Source: an uncultured Eggerthellaceae bacterium (GTDB lineage Bacteria; Actinomycetota; Coriobacteriia; Coriobacteriales; Eggerthellaceae). From it: DNA of 64,000 bases. Shown in pieces: positions 50,932-64,000 of this stretch (position 1 is the first letter of the stretch; every line of letters starts with the position of its first letter). The position numbers were made by a program, and so were the translations under genes. The notes beneath the pieces are model-generated. The model had not been told where the DNA came from and searched no databases. It was given only the letters and a program-made list of their open reading frames with translations. The stretch spans positions 186,001-250,000 of the forward strand of contig CALULI010000002.1 in the NCBI GenBank assembly GCA_944321455.1, written 5' to 3'.

Positions 50932-51300
50932 TTATTGTGTGTTGTTTTTTGAGTCGTTTTGGTATGAATTACGCGTAAACACCTCTGGGCCATAAAGCGC
51001 ATACTGATTGCACCACTCTTTAATACGATGACGATTTGCGATTTTATAGCGCTTCATAACCTCAACTATTGGCACTCCGTTTTTACGATCTTGCACAGCA
51101 GCTAATTTTGTTTCGACAGAATATGAGCGAGAACACTTTTCAGGATGCTTATATAAATCCGCCCCTAACACTCTCCATGCGTAAGCCCATTCACGCACTG
51201 TCTCTACATTTACATTTAGTTTGGTTGAAACAGCTTTATAGCCATAACCTGACTCAAATAATTCAAGAACTTCCAGGCGTTTTGCTTGACTTATACGCAT
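50932..51300 (-). CDS. Orphan IS3-OrfA-like helix-turn-helix protein
   Basis: A 122-residue protein with two helix-turn-helix units: RLEVLELFESGYGYKAVSTK with VNVETVREWAYAWRVLG, and ETKLAAVQDRKNGVPIVEVM with HRIKEWCNQYALYG. This tandem is the OrfA DNA-binding half of IS3/IS150-type transposases. No OrfB integrase (DDE) frame lies upstream or downstream on this strand. It is either a decayed insertion sequence or an OrfA-derived DNA-binding protein now near the adhesin. The start ATG 51298-51300 is set by the HTH; 22 further codons are open. An inverted pair (ACAATAATT/AATTATTGT) brackets the stop-proximal gap at 50884-50936. Confidence 0.8.
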   Translation of the reverse strand: MRISQAKRLEVLELFESGYGYKAVSTKLNVNVETVREWAYAWRVLGADLYKHPEKCSRSYSVETKLAAVQDRKNGVPIVEVMKRYKIANRHRIKEWCNQYALYGPEVFTRNSYQNDSKNNTQ

Positions 51301-51447
51301 ATAAATCGCACTCTCTTTCGCGATACGCGACGAGGTTTCAATAGAGATCATTGAGAAATGGAACACAGAGACACTTGAACTGATAGACGAGCCAAAAAAC
51401 GAAGCAAATATTCAATTTTGGCTTAATTTCAAGATGAATTTCATGAA

Positions 51448-51483: not shown

Positions 51484-54400
51484 TTATTTGTTCTTAGACC
51501 TGAGTTTTCTATAAGCAACAGTACTCATCACAATTGCCCACATGCCAAGCAGGCCAAATGCTCCCGCAAGAAGCGTCAAAATCTTATTGTCACCCGTTTT
51601 AGGAAGCTCTGTTCCTGGCAGAGGCTCATTGTTCAAGGTGATGACTGCTATTCCACTGCTTTCAATAGCTGAAGCATTTTGCTTCATATCAGCAGCCGAA
51701 GTATCCGCGATCTGCACTGTTCCGTCTTCGAATACCAGCAAATCAAGCGAGCCACTTGGTTGCGCATAGCCCTCAGGAGCCTTCGTTTCCGTAACGGTAT
51801 AAAGTGTTCCTTCAGCAGAGCCCGTCAGCTGCAACTGGTGGAAGACGATGCCATTTTCGTCAGACGTAAACATCTTTTCCGTCTGACCATCAGGGAATTC
51901 GCCTTCGACTCTGAATTCAGCACCAGCCAAAGGAGCTCCGTTAGGTGCCTGCTTTATCAGCGTTACCTCTAATGGATTATTCTCTGCCGTTATTGCATCT
52001 TTTGTCTGACCAATAGCAAATGCTGCTGGCGGGAAGAACCCTGCATCGATAGTGCCGTCAGCCTGTACCGTGAAAGTAAGCGTGTCGGTTAACAACTCAT
52101 AACCTGCAGGTGCTTTCGTTTCGGCAAGGGTGTATTCCTGACCCGCAATTAAACCAGACAGAACAGCCGTGCCATCTTCGCCTGTTGTTGCGGTCACCGA
52201 ATGGCCTGCAGTACTGCCAACATTAGAGTCTGTAGCAGTAGCGGTAAATTCAGCGCCAGGCAATAAGCCCTGTCCGCCATCTGTCTTGGTAATAGTTACC
52301 TCAACAAGATGATCGGTTGCGCTAATAACTGCCATATCACCATCAGTAGAGGCAGTATAGGCACCCGTACCATTCTTGCCTGCTACAGCAGCAGATTCCG
52401 TAGCGGAACCTTCGCCCGCAGTCGAGGAATCAGCCGTAGCCGTAGCGCCATCGGTAACGAGAGAAATCACGCCATCGGTACCAACCGTAAACTCGACAGA
52501 ACCAGCTAACTCGTAACCACTAGGAGCGGTTACTTCAGTAATGGTGTAGTTCTCGTTTGCGATTAATGCCGCAGAAGGAATGCTTGCCACACCATTAGCA
52601 TCAGTTGCGCTCAGAGTTATCTCGGTTTCATTTGCGTAGTCACCCGCAAAGGTTCCCTGGACAGTAAAGATTGCATTTGCAAGTGGCGTGCCTGCTTCGT
52701 CAGTCTTTACCAACTTGGCTTCAATTGGAGTATCGGCAGCAGTAAAGGTTACAACGCCATCCTCCCCTTCAGCTACGGTATAGCCCTCAGGTGCACCCTG
52801 TAAGGTAACCGTGCCTTCCTTTTCAACCGTGAAGGTTACATCGGACAGTAATTCATAACCTGCAGGTGCAGTTACTTCGTGCAGGGTATAGGTGGTACCA
52901 GCGATAAGATTCTCGAGCGCGATGGTACCGTTTTCGCCGACGGAAACATCAGCATACGGCTCACCTTCAGCGGACTCGCCCTGATACAGCTCAAAGACCG
53001 CACCCGGAAGTGCGAGCTGCTCGTTGGCGCTGCTCGTCTTTGCAAGCGTCACCTCGATGGGCGTGTCGTGCGCTGCCAAGACGATGTTGTCGTCTATCTC
53101 GGAAATGACGTAGCCCTCTTCGCCCTCGCCTGCTTGCTCGAAGCCTTCAGCAGGGGCGATCTTGCCGTTCTCATCAACGCTAAACGTGAAGGGTTCGAGC
53201 GTCTCGTAGTACGCAGGTGCCGTGTTTTCAGTGAGCGTATATTTCTGTCCTGCGATCAAACTATAAGTTGCTCCCTCATATGGCAGACCAGCGAACGAAA
53301 CTGTACCATCTGTTGAAGTAAACGGAATGTCGAGCTTTGCTGTCACGTGCGTCTTATCGTTCACAAAGGTGCCGGACAAAGTGAATTCGCCGCCCGCCAG
53401 GTTCGTGTCGCCCAGGTCCTTCTTCACGAAGCCAACCTCGATGGGCTCGTCGGAAGCAACGATAGTAACATTGCCCTGCTCGACGCTATAACCATCTGGT
53501 GCGGTGCCCACAATGCTAACCTCGCCGTTTTCGCCCACGGTAAACTCAAGCGTGCCCGTGCGAAGCTCGTAGCCATCAGGCGCCTGCTTCTCGGTCAGCT
53601 GGTAGGTCTGGCTGCTCTTGAGCTCGGTATCGATATCAATTCTGCCATTTTCGTTCGTCTTGAACTCGCGCGTCTCAATTTCATTAGAGCCAGCGAACTC
53701 GCCCACAATCTCGAAGACTGCGCCCGGCAGCTTCGTTGTCGTATTGTGCGCATCCACCTTCACGATGCCGATCTCGATGGGCTCGTTAACAACCTGCACT
53801 TCGAACTTGTTGGCGTCGACTCGCGTATATCCCGTCGGGGGCATCTGTCCCGCAAGCTGGCCGTCGGTCACAGATCCGAGCACGCGAATCGTACCGTCGT
53901 TATCGACCGTCACGCGCATCGTGCCTTCGACCTTTTCGTAGCCTTCTGGTGCCTTGGTCTCGGTGATGTCGTAGGTGCCACCCACAATGAGATAAGCGCT
54001 CATACTGAGCGTACCGTCTTCACCCGTTCGCATCGTCTGAGCTTCAGTTGGATGAGCACCGGCGGCAAACTTCGAACCATTTACTGGTGTAATGGTGAAC
54101 TCAGCCCACGGCAGCGTCTCGCCCGGCGTGCCATCCTCGTTATCAGGGGCGCGCTTGGTAATCTGGAGCTCGACCGGATCGTTTTTCACAGTAAGCGAGA
54201 TTCGATTATCGTTCACCGTATACCCTGCAGGGTAATCCGCCTCAGCAAGCGGGTTTTCCTGCGCGTCTGTCACCACAATCTCGCCACGTTCGTTCATCAT
54301 GAAATAAAGCGACTCACTCAGCTGGGTATAGCCGTCGGCGGGCTTCGTCTCGCTCAGCTGGTAGCGCACGCCGCCCATGAGGCCGGCGTCCACATGGATA

Positions 54401-57400
54401 TAGCCGTCCTCGTTCGTGGTGTAGGTATGTGTCGTGTTCTTGTCCATGCACAAACCATAAAGCGTGAACTCAGCGCCCTCGAGCGCGTCACCATCGTCGT
54501 TCACCTTCAGGATGTCAATCTCTTCGTGGATGTTCGTCACCATGAAGGAGTAGGCATTGTCTGCCTGCCCATTCTCGTCGAGATCTGCCCACGCATAGCG
54601 CTCGGGCAGGTCGCCGTCTACTGCAAGCGATCCGTCCTCCTGCACCGTCACGGTGAGCACGGCATCCGCCGGGTCATAGCCGCTCGGCGCCTTGCTCTCG
54701 TAGATGGTGTAGGTGCCACCCACCACAAGCTGGCGCACCAGCTCGATATGACCAGTGGAATCGGTCGTAAGCGTCACGGTCTTCGTGGCCTCGTCGTAGG
54801 TGCCCGCAGCAAACTCGCTCGGCTGCGCGAACTCGGAGTTGCCCTGCGCCGCGATCTGGAACTCAGCGCCGGCAAGCGCCTGGCCAGCGTCGTTCTGCTT
54901 GTTGATTTCCAGGCTCGTGGGCGTGTTACGCACGGCGTTCGTGCCAGTAAGCGTCGGGTTCAGATGCGTGCGATCGATAGTGAGGTTGCCGCTCGTCACA
55001 CGATGGTTATCGGCGGTCGCGGAATCAGTGTAGTTGAAGTAGCCATCCGCTGGTGCAGTCTCGACGAAACGGTACGTGCCCCATTTGAGATTCGTGACCT
55101 TGATCTGACCTGCGGTGGAAGTCTGGGCATCGCCCTCGAGAGCCATGTTGTCATCGTTCATAGCGTACGCGTTGCCCGTCACCAAGCCCTCGGCGATAGC
55201 CTCCCACGTTTGCCCGTCTTCGCCCAGGCGCTGCAACTCGAAGGTCGCGCCGTTGAGCGCAGTGTTGTTCAGACCGGTCTTGGCCATCGTCACAGAACCA
55301 CGTTGCGGCACATTAGGAATGCCCTGACCCGCCACGAACGTACCATCAGCGCTGGTCACCTTAAAATCGATGTCAGCGCCGTCGCTGACGTTCTTGATAT
55401 CGAAGGTCGCATCGTCATCAGCGTTGTCGATGGTGAACGTCGCACTGAACCCGTTGCTCGTGTACCCCGTCTGGGTGGATTTCTCGGTCAGGGCATACGC
55501 GCCTTTCTCGAGACCAGAAAGCTCGAGCGTGCCATCTTGGCCAGTCTTCACTTCTTTGGTCCAGCCTTGGAACGCATCGCCTTCCGGATCGTAAGTCAAC
55601 GTGAAGACGATGTCCTGGATGCCTTCGTTCGTCTCGGTATCGAACTTATGCAGCTTCACCCCAGCGGTGAAATCCTCGTTGGCCATCGTCGCATCGACAG
55701 TCTTGCTGGTGTACGCGTAATGCGTGTCCTGCGTGATTGTCATTTCCGGCGACTTCGCGGCATCGCCAGACGGCATCACAGCACCCGGCGTGGCATCTTT
55801 CTCAAGGAAGTAATACGTGCCCTCGGGCAGGCCCTCGGAGAGTTTGGTGTACTTGTTATCGTACTTAGCCTTGAAGTCGTCGCTCACCGCGGTGCCGTTG
55901 TTCACCGTGGCGATGATGCCCTGAGCGTTCGTGGCAAGGTCGCTCGCCACGAGCAGGTCATCGCCGTTCGAGTTCACCTGGTACAGGTCGAAGACCGCGC
56001 CAGCGAGCGCAGCCTGGTTCGCACCGCCCACCTGGCCGTCATCGGTCACATACTTCGTAAGCTTGAGATGACCGCGCAGCACCGGGTCCTGAACGCTCAC
56101 CGTGATGGTACCGCCGGGGTTAGCGCCCTCAACATCGAGCACGTCGTTATTACCGCTCTGTGTTGCGGTCACGTTGCCGTTGTTCGCAATCGTGATGGTC
56201 ACGTCCGGCGCCTTGGCATAGCCTTCGGGCACCGTACCCGTCTCCTTCACGGTATAGGTACCGGCAGGCAAGCCGACAATGAAGCCGGCGTTGTCACCGG
56301 TCATCTCGGTGCCGCCCGTGGTGGGGTCGGTCGTGCCATCGGGCCAAACCGTACTTGAAACCACACCATTCACATCTTTCCAAACAGCATAGATAGTACT
56401 GCTCGCGTTGCCTGTGCCATAGACAGTGAGTTCAATGTCGCGCAGGTCCTCGGGCTCGGTTTGACCCTCGGGCGTGAAGTCGCTTACCTTGTCGAAGGTG
56501 AAGCGCGTTGCCACATTCGTGATGGCTTCATTTTCCTGCGCGCCCGGCTTTCCTGCCGTAGCTCCAGCGGTCACCGTCGTGCCCGCTGCGTCGTGCCCAT
56601 TCGCGTTCTGGTTCCCTGTAGAGCCATACAGCGGATAGAAGCCCTCGGCAGAGCCGCTGGTCTCTTCTGCCCAGTAGACATACGGCCTGTCATCGGCGTT
56701 GGCGGCCGGCAAACCATTGTATGCGAACTCCCATACGCCATCGCTATTGGCATCAGTCCACACGGGCTGACCGTTGTTGTAGATATAGGTTACCTGCTGC
56801 GCCTGGCTATAGGTGGTATCGCCCGTCTTGTACGCACGGTACAGCATCATCGTAGGGAAGTCCCTATCTGCAATATTCGGAGCGACCCCTGTGTCGAAGT
56901 CCTCCCACGCCTTGGTGCCAGTCAGGTTGACCGTGCGCAGCGTGTTGGTGAACGTCTGACTATCGGGTGTCTGCTCATTGCCTTGCGTAGAGCTCACCAC
57001 GTAATAGCGATAGGTGACGTCGTCAGTCGTAGCTGCGGTGCCCTTAGTGTCCGTTGCCTCGGTAACAGGCTCGACGCTTTTATCCGTCACGTCATAGCCA
57101 CCAGGCACTTGCTCGACGACGCGGTACTCATATTTCTTACCGTCCTGGTTGCAATCGGGCAGGTTCTTCCACTCAACCGTTGCAGACTGGCCATTGCCCG
57201 TGATGGTCTGGGAGACGATGCCCTCGGCAAGCGGGTTATCGACAACCGCTTGTCCTGCACCGTACTCCATGAGCCAATGCCAGCCCTCATCGCCGGAACC
57301 CTCAAGACGCTGCTGCAGCAGATAGGTCACTTCCCAGTTGCCGTTAGCGCCGTCAGGACGCGTGTTCCAGGCATCTTGCGTGTTGCCGTTGACATCGCCT

Positions 57401-60400
57401 TCCCAACTCTTCGTGGCGGAGATGCTCGTCGTCTCGAGTGTGTTGGTTATCTCGCTGTGATAGCCATCGTCCGCATTACCCGTCTCTTCCTGACTCGGCT
57501 GATACGGGTGATACGTATTGTAAATCGAGCCGTTGCTGCCCGGCTCGTCGGCCTTCGGTGCCTCTATCTCCTGATCGCCGATAGCAATCTCGACCGCGCG
57601 GTATTCGATGGTAAACAACTCACCAACATACTCGGGTATTTCACTGATACCCGCCATGGGCAAACCCGTCCATGACGCGTTCCAGCCGTTGTCTGCCCTC
57701 AGCTCTCTAACAATAAAATCTTCGGTGATGCCCGCAGCCTGGAGTTCTTCTTCAGTGGCGTATTCCGTATCGAGAAGCAGCTGGCGAGCGTTTTCCCATG
57801 AACCATCAGCAGGGATGGTGTGCGGGCCACCATCTGCCGACTGGTAGACCAGTCGCGCTTGTAACTGCACCGTCACCGACGTCGGTCGCAGTCCATATGG
57901 ATCTTCTCCATCCTTCCAGTCTTTGTGCACCGATATCGAGCCGCGCAGCGCGTTACGCAGCGCGAAGCTCGGGTTTTCGGCCGATGCGGAAACCGTTGCC
58001 TCTCCCGTGACGACGTCGTAATAGCTGTCGGCCGTGAGCCCGGCGTTGCCGATGCCCATCTTGTTCAAGTCTTCGGTGATCTTATATTGATAGGCCGTGC
58101 CATCAGGCGCCCACTTGGGCAAGTTGCTGATGGTGACCGTATAGTTATTGTCGCCGACCGTTTCATCGAGAACGTAATAGTACGGGTCTTCCGCTACGGT
58201 ATTCTGCAGCAAGCCCTGACCCTTGAGGTCGACGGTCTGGTTATTGCCAATCTGCTCGACAGTAAGGCCCTTCCAGAATTGCTCCACAGTAGGACGCATG
58301 TTGAACATGCCGTTGTAGTCATCCCACGTCTTAGTGCCCGTGAGATCGATGGATTCGGGCGTGTATTCGTTCTTGAACGTCACGTCGGGCGTAGTGTCAC
58401 CCGGAGTGACGGTGCCGTCTTCGGCGACCTCGTCTTTCGCCAGTACAGTGCCCGTCACTTTGTTCGTCGCTGTGCCCGTGTCGGAACCGCCAGGCTCAGG
58501 CGCCTCGACGGTGCCCTGCTCGGGACACAGCGCACCGGAGCTTACGCCGCCCTCGACGGCTTTGCCCGTGCCGTTCACGTTCTCAGCGGCAACATTGCCC
58601 ACATTCACCGTGGTCTTGTAGCCGTTGATGTTGTGTTCGACCACGTAGTACTGCCAATAGCTGCCGTCGGGCGCGTAAATATCAAGCCCGCTGAACGTGT
58701 ATTGTGCTGTGGTTGTTTCCTCGCCAGCATCCGTGATCGTCAGACCAGGAGTCTGCGTAGCGCCTTGCTTGAGCATGTCGTTTGTCAGCGTCACGCTGTC
58801 CACCAGCGCCGCAGCGCTCTTCACTCCCTCGTCGTTGATGTAGTAGCGGTACACGTCGAACGTCGTCGCAGGGTACAGGTCACCCGCTTCGCGCTCGGTG
58901 TAGTGCTTCTGCACCGTAAGGCTACCCGTATCAGAGGTGTAGATGTTGCGCAGCAAGAACGAGCCCGTCTCGCCGTGCTCGATCACGTAGATACCGATTG
59001 AATCGTCATCGCTGTCGCACAGCTCGCAGAAATCGGTGGTGTTGATGAATTCAGTTGTTGGCCCACCAGGCTGATTGAGCAATCCCCACGGCACCTCAAT
59101 AGCACGATACTCATAGAGTTCGCCATCTTCTGTATAGCGCGGAAGCAGTTCAGCGCCTTCGGGCAACGTCGGACTGTCTTCATCCAACGCCGCCGTCACG
59201 CCCTCTTCGGTATTCTCGCCCGTATATGCCAGACGATACGTGTACTGATTGTTACCCTGCGATACCAGATCGGATGTCCAGGCAATGGCGCTGGTGCCAT
59301 CGGCGAACTTCCAATTGCCTTCGTCATTCGTCTCGAACTTCAACGATGGCCACGTGTCTTCTCCAGCAACACGCTGCTGGATATAGACCGTGAGCTCGGG
59401 CAAGTCAGCCTGCGCCACATTGCCAGGCACGTTCTCCCACAGCTTCGTGCCGCGTGCCACGAGGTTGTCCGTCAGCTTGTTGACGAACGTGCCTCCCTCG
59501 TGAATAGCCCAGTTAGAGCCATCCTCGATCGATGCAGGATCATTATTCGTCGCATTCGTCTGGATGTTCACTGCCTCGGGATCGCCGTTAATATCCATGT
59601 TGGCGCCATTAGCATCAGTGAAAGTGTCCCTGAACGTCACGGGCGTGTAATCGAGAGAAGAACCATCAGCTGACATGGACTCCGTTGCAAAATACACGTA
59701 TTCGTTACCGTTGCTGTCATACGAAGGTAAATTTGCGATAGAACAGGTCTGGTCGTATTGCGCGTCCGCGCTGCCCTGCGCGCCCGTCCACAGCCAGTTT
59801 ACGTAGTCATCGACCGGTTCCGGATCACTATAAATCGCTGCGCCATCAGCGCCGCGCTCAATCGTCATACGATAAAGCGTGAGATAAATATCCGGGCGCT
59901 GCTTGAGCTGGTCGTTCACGTACTGGTCGCTCCAGTGCTTATGGAAGACCACCGTGCGCGTGGCCTGACGCGTGTTGGTGAACTCATAGGTCTGCTTATC
60001 GTGGAAGTGCTGGGTGCCTACTATATAGTCTCCCACTTCCTTGGTGCTGGTGTACTCGCCGGCATTTTCGTCTGGAGCCCAGCGCTCGCTCACATCGTAG
60101 TGAACAACGTTGCCATTGCTGTCGTACTTGGGAAGCCCGTGGAACGCATAGGCGAACGTGTTTTGCGTAAGATCAGGCTTCATCGTCATGACGAGCACTT
60201 GCGAACCATCGATATTTTCTATACGCACACCATCTGCTGTTGTAAGCTGCTCTCCCTCGGCATCAAGAACTGGGATGCGGTTTTCGCTAACCTGAACCCA
60301 AGCTTTCCCTTCCGCGTCAATAGAAAACGCATCGGCATACTCCGTACACGAGAGTACGAGTTCTGCTTTAGGGCGATTGGTGTGATCAACGCCATCGTTC

Positions 60401-63400
60401 CAGATTTTGGTGATATCAATATCAATTAAGCCTAAACGGCGATTTGTCGCCGTAACAGCACTCATAGCATCATTGTATTCACCTTCGGTAGCAGTTGGCG
60501 TTCCGCTAACTTGATAGACATGATCCTCTGTTGCCACACGATACGTGTTTTCAGTGCTCTCGTAGTCCCAACCAATGTTGATCCAGTCTGTTGAGATGCC
60601 CTTATCCGCATAGGCATTCTGTGCATCCTGGCCGTCATTGGCGCCGCTCACAATCGGATACTGCGTACCATCGTCGCCGATGAGGTACTTCTCCTCAATC
60701 CTGAATTGCTTATAAGACACATCGCCAATGGGCACGTCTACTTCCGCAAACCACGAATTATCAGCAGAAAGCGTGATGTTGGAAACTACCACCTCACCTG
60801 CATCGTAGTGATAAAGCTCGTCCGTTGCGGGGTCGATGTTCTGCTTTGCTGTCATGGATGTTGTGGCAACCAAGTCGACAACAACGGGCAGGCGGTGCGA
60901 GGCATCGTCACCGTCGTTCCAATTCTTGATAAGACGAATTTCGGAACCTTCGCCCGGACCGACCGTGTTCTCAATGCGTGTCGTATGCGTGTCGGCATCG
61001 TAGGTTCGCTCGGTATGCCAGCCAGAGGGCGCCTGCTCCAAAACCATATAGGTGTAGTACACGCCGCCCTCGTCGTATTTAGGTAGGTTCTCGAACTCGA
61101 AATGATACGACGCCGTCTCCATTACGCGCACATCCTGACCCAAGTTGGATATAGTCGTCCAATCAGAATCAACAGTGCCGTCCATTTCAAATGAACCAAT
61201 AAGCACGCCATCTTGGAACAGGTCCATCGTGACTTTGCCGCTCGTGTCCAAGTCGGGATAGTCGGGATAGCCGCCATCTTGTGGTTTGATCTGAGCCAAA
61301 GTGCCGTCGGGCTGCTGCCAGAATTTGTCAACACGTTCATAGGTAGTGTTGTCAAAACGGTTGGTGATGGTATTGGTTTCCTCGTCGAGCGTGGAGGTAA
61401 AGTTTAGCTGCTCTTGTTCGCCTTCAATATTCTCTAGCGAAAGCGTAAAGGTGCCGCCGCCCTTGTCGTCAGATGTAAAGTTGGTTTTCTGGTCACCCAA
61501 AGTGACGTTAGACTCAACCCAGCGGTACTCAAGTTCTCTACCCTGCGAGTCATATTTCGGGAACGTCTCACTAAACGTCTGTGTCAGTTTTTCTGAAAGC
61601 CAGCCATTAATTTCGTGCTTGTTGTCTGTGTTCTGCCATTCGCTATTCTGACCAAAACCAGGATTTGCCAGACGCTGCTGCAACGTGAACTCAACGGTCA
61701 CGTCCTTCAGCGAATCCTGAAAAGCTGCGATTTCCCAGGTTTTAGTAGCTTCGACAGGAATTGTACCTGTCAGACGGTTTGTGATAGTGCCGCCATTGTA
61801 GATGAAAGGGTCTTTGGTGCGATCTGCCGCAGATAAATCGACACGCGTGTCTTCCGTGTCTTCATAGTTGGGAGCGGTATCGGTGACGGCGCCGTTCGCG
61901 TCCACGGTGCCATACACCGTCTCGTAGCCCGTAAGGCTTGAATCCTCACGTAGCGCATAGATGTAGGGGTAGCCGTCCGGATCGTACTTGGGCAGCTGGT
62001 CGATGGCATCGCCGTACTTTTCACGCAGCAGTTTGTTGAGATCAACCGTGCTGTCGCTTTTCTCCGGAATTGTAACCGTGACGAACTCGACCGCATTCAT
62101 CGACGAGCCCGGATTAGAAGTGCCCGAGGTGACGGCGTTCAGCTGCACCTGCGCGGCCTGAGAATACGAGCTGTTCGTGGAATAACGCCACAGCGAGAAA
62201 GTGGTCTCAGGACGGTTGTCTTTGTTGTCGCCGTCCAGCCAGACCTTGTTGGCATCGTACGACGTCTGGCCTATGGGGCGCAGCGTCATAGTGCCACCAT
62301 CGTGCAGGAGGTTCGTGGAGCTGCCGTGGCTGGGAGAGTCGGAGTTGTTGTAGGAAGGCTGGAAGTAGTCCTGCCCCTGCTGCCCCTCGTGATGATCCTG
62401 GAACTGAATGTAGTAAACGATGGGCGAATTGTTGACATCATACATGGGCAAGACTGCGGTGATAGTCGCTGTCTTACCGTCCTCACTGAATTCGACCGTA
62501 AACTCACGGCCCCGTTCTGCGAAAGATTGAACCATCTCTGCGATCGAAGGGAATTGTGTTGGATCTTCAACGTACTCGTTGTCGATCATAGCACCGAAGC
62601 GGAAATCATCAGCATGCTCTTCATTGGCGAAATTCGCGCCGAAAATCTGCTCGAGAGGGTCGTCGCCGATATTGCCCTTGATCGTGAACGTGTACTCTTG
62701 CGTAAGCATGTAGTAGCGCTGTCCGTCCTCGCCCTCTGCTGTCGGGCTGATAGCACCACTGTCGTTATCACCGTAAATGTAGTCTGCGGACAGACCATTC
62801 GTGTCGTTGATGCGCCACGTAATCGAAGTCGTTTCGGTTTGAGACACCATGCTTGGCGAGCCATCAGGGTTATACGAAGGTTTACCGTCTTCGTCCGTAG
62901 CCTGAGTGGTGGTGATGGTATTCAGCCTCGTGGGAAGCCCAGATGCTTCGGCATGCCAGGTGCTCACGGAAACCGAGCTCATTACCACTCCACGTACCCA
63001 GCTGGGCGTTTGCCCATCCGGAATATGCAACGCCTCGCGCGCCGACGTCGTAAGGCTGCCGTTCTTATCGATGAGTTGTATCCACGTTTTCCCGCCGTCA
63101 AGCGTGAACTCGGGAATAATGCTTGCGCCGTAACCAGTCATATCAGGGCGCTTGGCGCTGTTATTGTCACACCAAGTAATGTTCATTGCAGCACTACCGC
63201 TGTAATTGTCCAGCGAATAGATCGTAGTTGATTCAGCGAGCGAATTGATGCCGTCGTCAGCAGTTTGCGCTGCCACATCACCATTTGTCACTCCAAGCAC
63301 AGAACCCAATGCGCCAAGAGGATTATGAGTATTGTGCCATGCATCCAACACCGCTTGTTTGGTAGGAAATACCACATCAACGTTATTCTCTGTACCATCT

Positions 63401-64000
63401 TCAGCAGTCTGAGCCGTCCAAGTCTGCTTCAGCTCTTGATTGTCACCCAAAAACGCTGCGCTAAACGTTGCTTTCAAATCCACAAAGCCGCGCACAACCG
63501 CGTTGATATCTTCTGTTGCGCCCGCTTCAACAAAGGTGATTTTCAGTTCGCCGTTTTCCACCTTGGCATCGGCAATTTTTTCGGTTGTTTCAGTTCCGTC
63601 TTCATTCAGGCGGAATACTTCATAGGTTTGATTTTCGAAAGTAAGGAAATTAGGAAGAGTTGTTTCAATCCAGTCGCCCACCAGAAGCTTATCTTCACCT
63701 GGATTGAGGTTGAAATCTACACGGAACGTTGCAGGAAGAGTAGAAGGAAGGTCGTTATTTTCAAGCGATTCAATTTCAGAAGTTTCAACCGTAAGCTTTG
63801 CGTCTAAATCGCAGGCATCCAGTTTGGACTGCCATGCAAATGGATCGCGCTGATCTGCGGTTTCATTTGAATTGATGGGAGAACTTTCTTTTGTATTTTT
63901 AGCATCTTCGAGACTGTCTTGAGTATCACTATTTAGATCTTGATAAGAAGAATCTTTATTGTCCAGACCCGAATTACTGTATTCATTATTTGATTGTGAA
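51484..64000 (-). CDS. Giant LPXTG-anchored CnaB/SpaA-repeat surface protein, 5' end outside window
   Basis: At least 4171 residues; the frame is open to the window edge, so the start lies beyond 64000. The first visible part is Ser/Asn/Asp-rich, then SpaA/SdrG-like adhesin sequence (LPATFRVDFNLNPGEDKLL). From about 62240 to 56920 there are about 12 CnaB-type domains, each starting with K-x-W/Y (NKVWLDGDNKDNRP, IKNWNDGDDASHR, TKIWNDGVDHTNRP, GTKTWDDYNG). From about 56500 to 51950 there are about 13 SpaA/prealbumin-type domains with YTLxE-x-x-APxGY motifs. The C-terminus has LPKTG (51592-51606), a hydrophobic span and a basic tail (RKLRSKNK) for sortase. The domains are expected to form Lys-Asn/Asp isopeptide bonds. 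It probably acts as a long adhesin or stalk. No sortase is in the window. Confidence 0.93.
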   Translation of the reverse strand, partial: SQSNNEYSNSGLDNKDSSYQDLNSDTQDSLEDAKNTKESSPINSNETADQRDPFAWQSKLDACDLDAKLTVETSEIESLENNDLPSTLPATFRVDFNLNPGEDKLLVGDWIETTLPNFLTFENQTYEVFRLNEDGTETTEKIADAKVENGELKITFVEAGATEDINAVVRGFVDLKATFSAAFLGDNQELKQTWTAQTAEDGTENNVDVVFPTKQAVLDAWHNTHNPLGALGSVLGVTNGDVAAQTADDGINSLAESTTIYSLDNYSGSAAMNITWCDNNSAKRPDMTGYGASIIPEFTLDGGKTWIQLIDKNGSLTTSAREALHIPDGQTPSWVRGVVMSSVSVSTWHAEASGLPTRLNTITTTQATDEDGKPSYNPDGSPSMVSQTETTSITWRINDTNGLSADYIYGDNDSGAISPTAEGEDGQRYYMLTQEYTFTIKGNIGDDPLEQIFGANFANEEHADDFRFGAMIDNEYVEDPTQFPSIAEMVQSFAERGREFTVEFSEDGKTATITAVLPMYDVNNSPIVYYIQFQDHHEGQQGQDYFQPSYNNSDSPSHGSSTNLLHDGGTMTLRPIGQTSYDANKVWLDGDNKDNRPETTFSLWRYSTNSSYSQAAQVQLNAVTSGTSNPGSSMNAVEFVTVTIPEKSDSTVDLNKLLREKYGDAIDQLPKYDPDGYPYIYALREDSSLTGYETVYGTVDANGAVTDTAPNYEDTEDTRVDLSAADRTKDPFIYNGGTITNRLTGTIPVEATKTWEIAAFQDSLKDVTVEFTLQQRLANPGFGQNSEWQNTDNKHEINGWLSEKLTQTFSETFPKYDSQGRELEYRWVESNVTLGDQKTNFTSDDKGGGTFTLSLENIEGEQEQLNFTSTLDEETNTITNRFDNTTYERVDKFWQQPDGTLAQIKPQDGGYPDYPDLDTSGKVTMDLFQDGVLIGSFEMDGTVDSDWTTISNLGQDVRVMETASYHFEFENLPKYDEGGVYYTYMVLEQAPSGWHTERTYDADTHTTRIENTVGPGEGSEIRLIKNWNDGDDASHRLPVVVDLVATTSMTAKQNIDPATDELYHYDAGEVVVSNITLSADNSWFAEVDVPIGDVSYKQFRIEEKYLIGDDGTQYPIVSGANDGQDAQNAYADKGISTDWINIGWDYESTENTYRVATEDHVYQVSGTPTATEGEYNDAMSAVTATNRRLGLIDIDITKIWNDGVDHTNRPKAELVLSCTEYADAFSIDAEGKAWVQVSENRIPVLDAEGEQLTTADGVRIENIDGSQVLVMTMKPDLTQNTFAYAFHGLPKYDSNGNVVHYDVSERWAPDENAGEYTSTKEVGDYIVGTQHFHDKQTYEFTNTRQATRTVVFHKHWSDQYVNDQLKQRPDIYLTLYRMTIERGADGAAIYSDPEPVDDYVNWLWTGAQGSADAQYDQTCSIANLPSYDSNGNEYVYFATESMSADGSSLDYTPVTFRDTFTDANGANMDINGDPEAVNIQTNATNNDPASIEDGSNWAIHEGGTFVNKLTDNLVARGTKLWENVPGNVAQADLPELTVYIQQRVAGEDTWPSLKFETNDEGNWKFADGTSAIAWTSDLVSQGNNQYTYRLAYTGENTEEGVTAALDEDSPTLPEGAELLPRYTEDGELYEYRAIEVPWGLLNQPGGPTTEFINTTDFCELCDSDDDSIGIYVIEHGETGSFLLRNIYTSDTGSLTVQKHYTEREAGDLYPATTFDVYRYYINDEGVKSAAALVDSVTLTNDMLKQGATQTPGLTITDAGEETTTAQYTFSGLDIYAPDGSYWQYYVVEHNINGYKTTVNVGNVAAENVNGTGKAVEGGVSSGALCPEQGTVEAPEPGGSDTGTATNKVTGTVLAKDEVAEDGTVTPGDTTPDVTFKNEYTPESIDLTGTKTWDDYNGMFNMRPTVEQFWKGLTVEQIGNNQTVDLKGQGLLQNTVAEDPYYYVLDETVGDNNYTVTISNLPKWAPDGTAYQYKITEDLNKMGIGNAGLTADSYYDVVTGEATVSASAENPSFALRNALRGSISVHKDWKDGEDPYGLRPTSVTVQLQARLVYQSADGGPHTIPADGSWENARQLLLDTEYATEEELQAAGITEDFIVRELRADNGWNASWTGLPMAGISEIPEYVGELFTIEYRAVEIAIGDQEIEAPKADEPGSNGSIYNTYHPYQPSQEETGNADDGYHSEITNTLETTSISATKSWEGDVNGNTQDAWNTRPDGANGNWEVTYLLQQRLEGSGDEGWHWLMEYGAGQAVVDNPLAEGIVSQTITGNGQSATVEWKNLPDCNQDGKKYEYRVVEQVPGGYDVTDKSVEPVTEATDTKGTAATTDDVTYRYYVVSSTQGNEQTPDSQTFTNTLRTVNLTGTKAWEDFDTGVAPNIADRDFPTMMLYRAYKTGDTTYSQAQQVTYIYNNGQPVWTDANSDGVWEFAYNGLPAANADDRPYVYWAEETSGSAEGFYPLYGSTGNQNANGHDAAGTTVTAGATAGKPGAQENEAITNVATRFTFDKVSDFTPEGQTEPEDLRDIELTVYGTGNASSTIYAVWKDVNGVVSSTVWPDGTTDPTTGGTEMTGDNAGFIVGLPAGTYTVKETGTVPEGYAKAPDVTITIANNGNVTATQSGNNDVLDVEGANPGGTITVSVQDPVLRGHLKLTKYVTDDGQVGGANQAALAGAVFDLYQVNSNGDDLLVASDLATNAQGIIATVNNGTAVSDDFKAKYDNKYTKLSEGLPEGTYYFLEKDATPGAVMPSGDAAKSPEMTITQDTHYAYTSKTVDATMANEDFTAGVKLHKFDTETNEGIQDIVFTLTYDPEGDAFQGWTKEVKTGQDGTLELSGLEKGAYALTEKSTQTGYTSNGFSATFTIDNADDDATFDIKNVSDGADIDFKVTSADGTFVAGQGIPNVPQRGSVTMAKTGLNNTALNGATFELQRLGEDGQTWEAIAEGLVTGNAYAMNDDNMALEGDAQTSTAGQIKVTNLKWGTYRFVETAPADGYFNYTDSATADNHRVTSGNLTIDRTHLNPTLTGTNAVRNTPTSLEINKQNDAGQALAGAEFQIAAQGNSEFAQPSEFAAGTYDEATKTVTLTTDSTGHIELVRQLVVGGTYTIYESKAPSGYDPADAVLTVTVQEDGSLAVDGDLPERYAWADLDENGQADNAYSFMVTNIHEEIDILKVNDDGDALEGAEFTLYGLCMDKNTTHTYTTNEDGYIHVDAGLMGGVRYQLSETKPADGYTQLSESLYFMMNERGEIVVTDAQENPLAEADYPAGYTVNDNRISLTVKNDPVELQITKRAPDNEDGTPGETLPWAEFTITPVNGSKFAAGAHPTEAQTMRTGEDGTLSMSAYLIVGGTYDITETKAPEGYEKVEGTMRVTVDNDGTIRVLGSVTDGQLAGQMPPTGYTRVDANKFEVQVVNEPIEIGIVKVDAHNTTTKLPGAVFEIVGEFAGSNEIETREFKTNENGRIDIDTELKSSQTYQLTEKQAPDGYELRTGTLEFTVGENGEVSIVGTAPDGYSVEQGNVTIVASDEPIEVGFVKKDLGDTNLAGGEFTLSGTFVNDKTHVTAKLDIPFTSTDGTVSFAGLPYEGATYSLIAGQKYTLTENTAPAYYETLEPFTFSVDENGKIAPAEGFEQAGEGEEGYVISEIDDNIVLAAHDTPIEVTLAKTSSANEQLALPGAVFELYQGESAEGEPYADVSVGENGTIALENLIAGTTYTLHEVTAPAGYELLSDVTFTVEKEGTVTLQGAPEGYTVAEGEDGVVTFTAADTPIEAKLVKTDEAGTPLANAIFTVQGTFAGDYANETEITLSATDANGVASIPSAALIANENYTITEVTAPSGYELAGSVEFTVGTDGVISLVTDGATATADSSTAGEGSATESAAVAGKNGTGAYTASTDGDMAVISATDHLVEVTITKTDGGQGLLPGAEFTATATDSNVGSTAGHSVTATTGEDGTAVLSGLIAGQEYTLAETKAPAGYELLTDTLTFTVQADGTIDAGFFPPAAFAIGQTKDAITAENNPLEVTLIKQAPNGAPLAGAEFRVEGEFPDGQTEKMFTSDENGIVFHQLQLTGSAEGTLYTVTETKAPEGYAQPSGSLDLLVFEDGTVQIADTSAADMKQNASAIESSGIAVITLNNEPLPGTELPKTGDNKILTLLAGAFGLLGMWAIVMSTVAYRKLRSKNK

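Follow-up and report, generated by a model that had tools for sequence, protein, structure and literature searches.

A giant surface protein of Coriobacteriia with two unmixed classes of stalk domains and a predominantly position-specific stalk

The giant gene and its domain classes

The window analysed here, a 64,000-nucleotide stretch of the genome of an uncultured, gut-type Eggerthellaceae bacterium, contains most of a giant surface-protein gene (51484–64000, minus strand). The open frame starts at an ATG at 64311 (L004:3312), which is preceded by an AGGAGGG ribosome site and leaves 311 bases outside the window. The protein, whose residues are numbered from this ATG, comprises 4,275 amino acids, with a computed mass of 462 kDa and a pI of 4.15 (strongly net acidic). 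The gene is probably its own transcription unit, since a strong terminator (14 pairs and a T-run) lies between it and the flavin oxidoreductase gene upstream.

From the N to the C terminus, the protein is organized as follows (all features being on the minus strand): a signal sequence and a Ser/Asn-rich acidic linker, as read directly from the sequence (residues 1–149; 63865–64000 and on to 64311); a head (residues 150–679; 62275–63864); twelve CnaB-type domains, C1–C12 (residues 680–2598; 56518–62274); thirteen SpaA-type domains, S1–S13 (residues 2599–4234; 51610–56517); and, from residue 4236 on, a C-terminal sorting signal made up of LPKTGD, a hydrophobic stretch and an RKLRSKNK tail (51487–51609). 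The LPKTG ending proposed in a preliminary description of this DNA was thus located at residues 4236–4240 (51592–51606). The same description had rightly placed CnaB-type domains in the N-terminal half and SpaA-type domains in the C-terminal half; it had missed the N-terminal head.

To delimit the two classes, the 25 domains were scanned singly against Pfam. The SpaA family (PF17802) was matched above cut-off by all thirteen S domains, and Cna_B (PF05738) by eight of the twelve C domains; C12 and C2 matched the latter at E=0.002 and 0.28, and no Cna_B match was obtained for C4 and C7. In these scans there was no cross-class match at E<=1, either of a C domain with SpaA or of an S domain with Cna_B. 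Leave-one-out models built from the giant's own domains assigned 25/25 domains to the correct class, which rules out the possibility that both tiers belong to one generic class. A simple count gives a probability of about 4e-7 that a random order would fall into one block of 12 domains and one of 13 with no mixing. The claim of about 12 CnaB-type followed by about 13 SpaA-type domains, unmixed, therefore stands with these exact numbers: over the full gene, including the part beyond 64000, the two classes are not interleaved and behave as separate families. Both families belong to the same Pfam clan (Transthyretin, CL0287; PMC8286594) and are therefore homologous folds. As the preliminary description had proposed, we also modelled the fold: the model of the C11–S2 junction (pLDDT 83, pTM 0.71) resembles the TIE, SpaC and RrgB isopeptide stalks and shaft pilins (Foldseek). 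An extra degenerate CnaB-like domain is probable at the end of the head; in some relatives, the equivalent region is scored as a C domain.

The triad required for an intramolecular isopeptide bond (Lys, catalytic Glu and Asn/Asp) is present in all 25 domains. In a full-length alignment with 13 relatives, identity to the giant is 99% in the 55 triad columns, versus 44% in the 2,611 other columns, while non-triad Lys, Glu and Asn residues, used as controls, are conserved at 18%, 31% and 24%, respectively. The triads of C1–S8 are near-invariant, and those of S9–S13 are only partly comparable across relatives because the orthologous positions are missing in most of them. We infer from this conservation that isopeptide bonds may form in up to 25 domains. 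Since the full triad occurs in every domain of both halves, nothing indicates that the halves differ in rigidity, and the rigid basal stalk with a different distal half that had been suggested is not borne out. As to orientation, the SpaA-type domains are nearest the wall and the CnaB-type half lies farther out, below the N-terminal head.

Positional orthology and turnover along the stalk

Relatives were sought in 140 genomes of the same family, in a class-wide sample of 400 genomes and in a phylum sample of 397 genomes. A homologue of the head was found in 10 of the 140 same-family genomes (7 genera). In the class-wide sample, 25 genomes matched, five of them weakly (E 3e-5 to 8e-4), the strong matches including two further families. 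The phylum sample gave no indication of a spread beyond Coriobacteriia, as its three matching genomes all belong to the same order or family. A first scan of genome contigs with the giant's own head as the sole query gave no match.

Giants of 3,587–4,595 residues occur in three Coriobacteriia families (Eggerthellaceae, Coriobacteriaceae and Atopobiaceae), with members in Rubneribacter, Aphodovivens, Enorma, Collinsella and Olsenella. The size of the protein, correctly anticipated to exceed 4100 residues, is therefore ordinary for the family rather than exceptional, and small beside two LPxTG-type frames of 23,000–24,000 residues. The latter are uninterrupted frames found in two same-family genomes, one of 24,208 residues (L132–L138, G135:C1:28327-100950) and one of 23,378 residues that has a hydrophobic, signal-like segment close to its N terminus (L139–L143, G010:C1:16794-86927); both carry an LPITGD/LPQTGD-type C-terminal sorting signal and none of the giant's C or S domains.

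Nearly all complete giants (about 12 relatives) consist of 11–13 C domains followed by 8–14 S domains; the exception is a relative of 4,595 residues (L092), which has 11 C domains and one S domain, then other sequence. Frames that are broken or short in the assemblies (relatives L025, L026, L087/L097, L089/L107 and L095) were left as assembled. The sorting signals of the relatives vary (LEKTGD, LSKTGD, TPKTGD, VPDTGD). Directly downstream of the giant gene of one relative lies a second large secreted-protein gene with a similar signal sequence (L024:1-2760, minus strand, genome G066).

We then compared the domains one by one with those of 12 relatives. Best hits were collinear in 137/144 cases for C1–C12 and in 45/48 cases for S1–S4 (182/192 together), and they beat the best paralogue within the giant in 187/192 cases. 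By contrast, S5–S13 gave collinear best hits in 46/108 cases and hits better than the paralogue in 62/108. C1–C12 and S1–S4 are thus, as judged from these comparisons, one-to-one positional orthologues, roughly 30–65% identical across families, whereas paralogues within the protein score only 22–40 bits. The leave-one-out scores separate the SpaA-type domains in the same way: 17–29 bits for the divergent S1–S4 (54931–56517), whose triads are invariant, and 54–81 bits for the homogeneous, wall-nearest S5–S13 (51610–54930). Collinearity and leave-one-out scores together therefore define three tiers rather than two. The closest relatives retain S5–S8 or S5–S9, and even these have not kept S10–S13 in position. 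Comparison between genera, with one genome per species, suggests that the S5–S13 segment turns over while the remainder stays fixed. The fixed order of the domain classes, on which the preliminary description had built, is kept in some 12 relatives across the three families; LPXTG-type anchoring and reach as the likely role of the protein are supported as well. The sharper evolutionary boundary, however, lies at S4/S5 and not at C12/S1.

Conservation is not confined to the triads: C1–C12 contain invariant, domain-specific motifs, such as QRPDIYLTLYR and DSDDDSIGIYVIEHGETGSF. The head, by contrast, is the fastest-evolving part of the protein and is less conserved than the domain array.

Phylogenetic incongruence and the genomic site

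The closest relatives of the giant (51–61% identity) are found in Coriobacteriaceae and Atopobiaceae, the closest Eggerthellaceae giant being only 45% identical. Consistently, a tree of C1–C12 groups the gene with those of Coriobacteriaceae/Atopobiaceae (support 100/100), and a tree that joins all Eggerthellaceae rows in a single clade is rejected (p-AU 8e-5). No homologue of the head and no related gene was found in four congeners. In one of them (G001), both flanks are present without the giant, nth being followed within about 1 kb by a homologue of the gene at 68694; in another (G004), the same flanks enclose a different gene. The GC3 of the giant gene is 0.62 overall and reaches 0.77 mid-gene, versus 0.44–0.49 in sampled neighbouring genes. 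Because its nearest relatives lie in other families, it is missing from the same locus in two congeners and its GC3 is foreign, the giant gene seems to have moved between families by horizontal transfer, as a whole gene of about 13 kb. Gene loss in the congeners could account for the empty sites but does not explain the tree.

GC3 drops to about 0.37–0.41 at either end of the giant gene, as if a host-like signal and head on one side and the last SpaA-type domains on the other surrounded a foreign core. Directly downstream lies a gene for a 144-residue protein with a transposase-type helix-turn-helix (HTH_28/HTH_Tnp_1; 50932–51366, minus strand), which falls inside the stretch missing from congener G001. 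As for the upstream flavin oxidoreductase, a further congener (G002) has two copies of it (69% and 76% identity; L124:2875-4827 and L124:16307-18355) that flank about 11 kb near the same nth locus, which is thus a variable genomic site.

Head, anchoring and possible functions

By sequence, the only resemblance of the head to a known family is to Big_8, and it lies below cut-off (E=0.025; the best value in a relative is 0.003): no Pfam match was above cut-off, and alignment searches against solved structures returned nothing below E=0.35. The AlphaFold model (pLDDT 78, pTM 0.49) suggests a Big_8-like beta-sandwich followed by two degenerate CnaB-like beta domains. Foldseek matches of this model are dominated by adhesins and pilins (FnBPA, BcpA, RspB, ClfA, SdrE and CNA; E 9e-8 to 4e-5), with global TM scores of only 0.15–0.33, as expected if the arrangement of the domains is uncertain. 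MSCRAMM adhesins (FnBPA, ClfA, CNA N2–N3) were thus the first folds found, but with low TM. Given the low TM scores to adhesins and the sub-threshold Pfam results, adhesion is a putative role of the head, which the model suggests.

The sorting signal scores above cut-off with TIGR01167. The sortase gene expected elsewhere in the genome was found: the single Pfam sortase, of class B by TIGR03064, lies on another contig, and there is no sortase cluster beside the giant gene. In three genomes of one other genus (G344, G368 and G328), the only sortase gene is found about 7–12 kb downstream of the giant and shares its strand.

Taken together, these observations lead us to regard the giant, with a probability of roughly 0.7, as a single-chain, wall-anchored fibrillar adhesin in which a locked rod of 25 domains presents an N-terminal head. 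After secretion, the only sortase of the cell, a class B enzyme, would link LPKTGD to the peptidoglycan. With its Glu as the catalyst, every one of the 25 CnaB-like or SpaA domains would form a Lys–Asn or Lys–Asp isopeptide bond; the resulting rod, stiff and resistant to proteases, would measure very roughly 100 nm (estimated from about 4 nm per domain) and would display an MSCRAMM-like, fast-evolving head. S5–S13, nearest the wall, would act as an adjustable spacer whose domains are gained, lost or homogenised, and C1–C12 with S1–S4 would form a fixed part, whose domains cannot replace one another and which moves as one block in transfers between families. What the data show directly is the set of domains and their order, the conserved triads, the orthology by position, the turnover from genus to genus, the incongruent phylogeny and the empty site in congeners; bond formation, rod length, the anchoring enzyme, and the function and binding partner of the head are what we infer beyond these data.

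The name given to the protein by NCBIfam (NF033902) would instead make it a sortase-polymerised pilus subunit, that is, a major pilin of the SpaH/EbpB type. The match is strong (160.9 bits for a cut-off of 95), and the C11–S2 folds do resemble shaft pilins. However, the best stretch covers only positions 340–487 of the 540 of the profile, and nine stretches match because the SpaA domains are repeated, which is what causes the NCBIfam match. Furthermore, a sequence search revealed no [WY]xxxVxVYPK-like motif in the giant, there is no adjacent pilin-specific class C sortase (the genome's one sortase being of class B), and a chain of 4,275 residues speaks against a pilin. We therefore reject this reading, which has hardly any chance of being correct, and see no sign of the assembly function that had been put forward as an alternative to reach. 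Only slightly less improbable is a non-adhesive surface protein, be it a cell–cell spacer, a coat or a means of aggregation between the Coriobacteriia themselves: the strong net acidity and the lack of any confident adhesive domain by sequence would fit, but the fold matches of the head are mostly adhesins and pilins, and its status as the fastest-evolving part is expected of a ligand-binding tip.

A more serious competitor, though still an unlikely one, is an ordered multi-ligand scaffold in which each C domain has its own surface and its own partner (host or bacterial ligands, or contacts with neighbours), so that the order is immutable. The one-to-one orthology of C1–C12 and S1–S4 across families, set against the low scores of the paralogues, argues for it, as do the invariance of the domain-specific motifs and the lower conservation of the head relative to the array. 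Indeed, the conservation of C1–C12 beyond the triad is greater than a mere spacer would require and counts against a plain rod. On the other hand, we found no known ligand-binding domain inside the array, and positional orthology is equally expected from an old, diverged array whose dissimilar repeats are unable to recombine. The position-specificity of C1–S4 may reflect either interfaces between neighbours or separate ligands. We also entertain, tentatively and with no great confidence, the idea of a mobile, position-coded scaffold of about 4,000 residues: 16 of the 25 domains would be individually specialised and non-exchangeable, with their own surfaces in a fixed order, in one gene spreading between families, the head and the wall-proximal segment being free to change.

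The wall-anchored fibrillar adhesin that we favour has recognizable counterparts. Fibrillar adhesin-like proteins with SpaA/Cna_B stalks have been described (PMC8286594), and isopeptide domains have been surveyed (PMC12617251). Like these adhesins, the giant combines an N-terminal head, an isopeptide stalk of the Transthyretin clan and a C-terminal LPXTG; its 12 CnaB-type and 13 SpaA-type domains, with the folds modelled at the junction, are repeated stalk domains of the rod-forming kind. It differs from them in that its head is below the Pfam cut-off, its stalk classes are segregated and 16/25 domains are fixed in position across three families. Another counterpart, the 318.6-kDa protein AggLb of Lactobacillus paracasei, likewise has a leader, a long array of CnaB-like repeats (20, preceded by adhesive N-terminal domains) and an LPXTG-type end, but its repeats are almost identical (PMC5014864), whereas those of the giant are highly diverged and of two classes. 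In Periscope proteins, a rod of tandem domains sets the projection distance of the tip (PMC8201768), and in the giant, too, domain number varies, in S5–S13 and between genera. Tandem Repeats Finder detected no DNA tandem repeats in 51484–64000, which rules out long high-identity repeats of the Periscope type. The best reading is therefore that of a new family within the known fibrillar adhesin kind, unusual for its fixed order and gene mobility; we found no paper on this family in the literature searched.

The usual view of adhesin stalks is that of generic, repetitive spacers; here most of the stalk is strongly position-specific. The separate wall-side segment, free to turn over, makes the family a natural experiment on what must stay fixed in a long adhesin. 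The family also links gut Coriobacteriia whose adhesion is little studied (relatives in Collinsella, Enorma, Olsenella and Rubneribacter). Finally, the same genome encodes another surface protein that carries SpaA, about 1,000 residues long and with a Listeria/Bacteroides-type repeat below cut-off (L030:436-3216; G000:C6, from about 150262 on).
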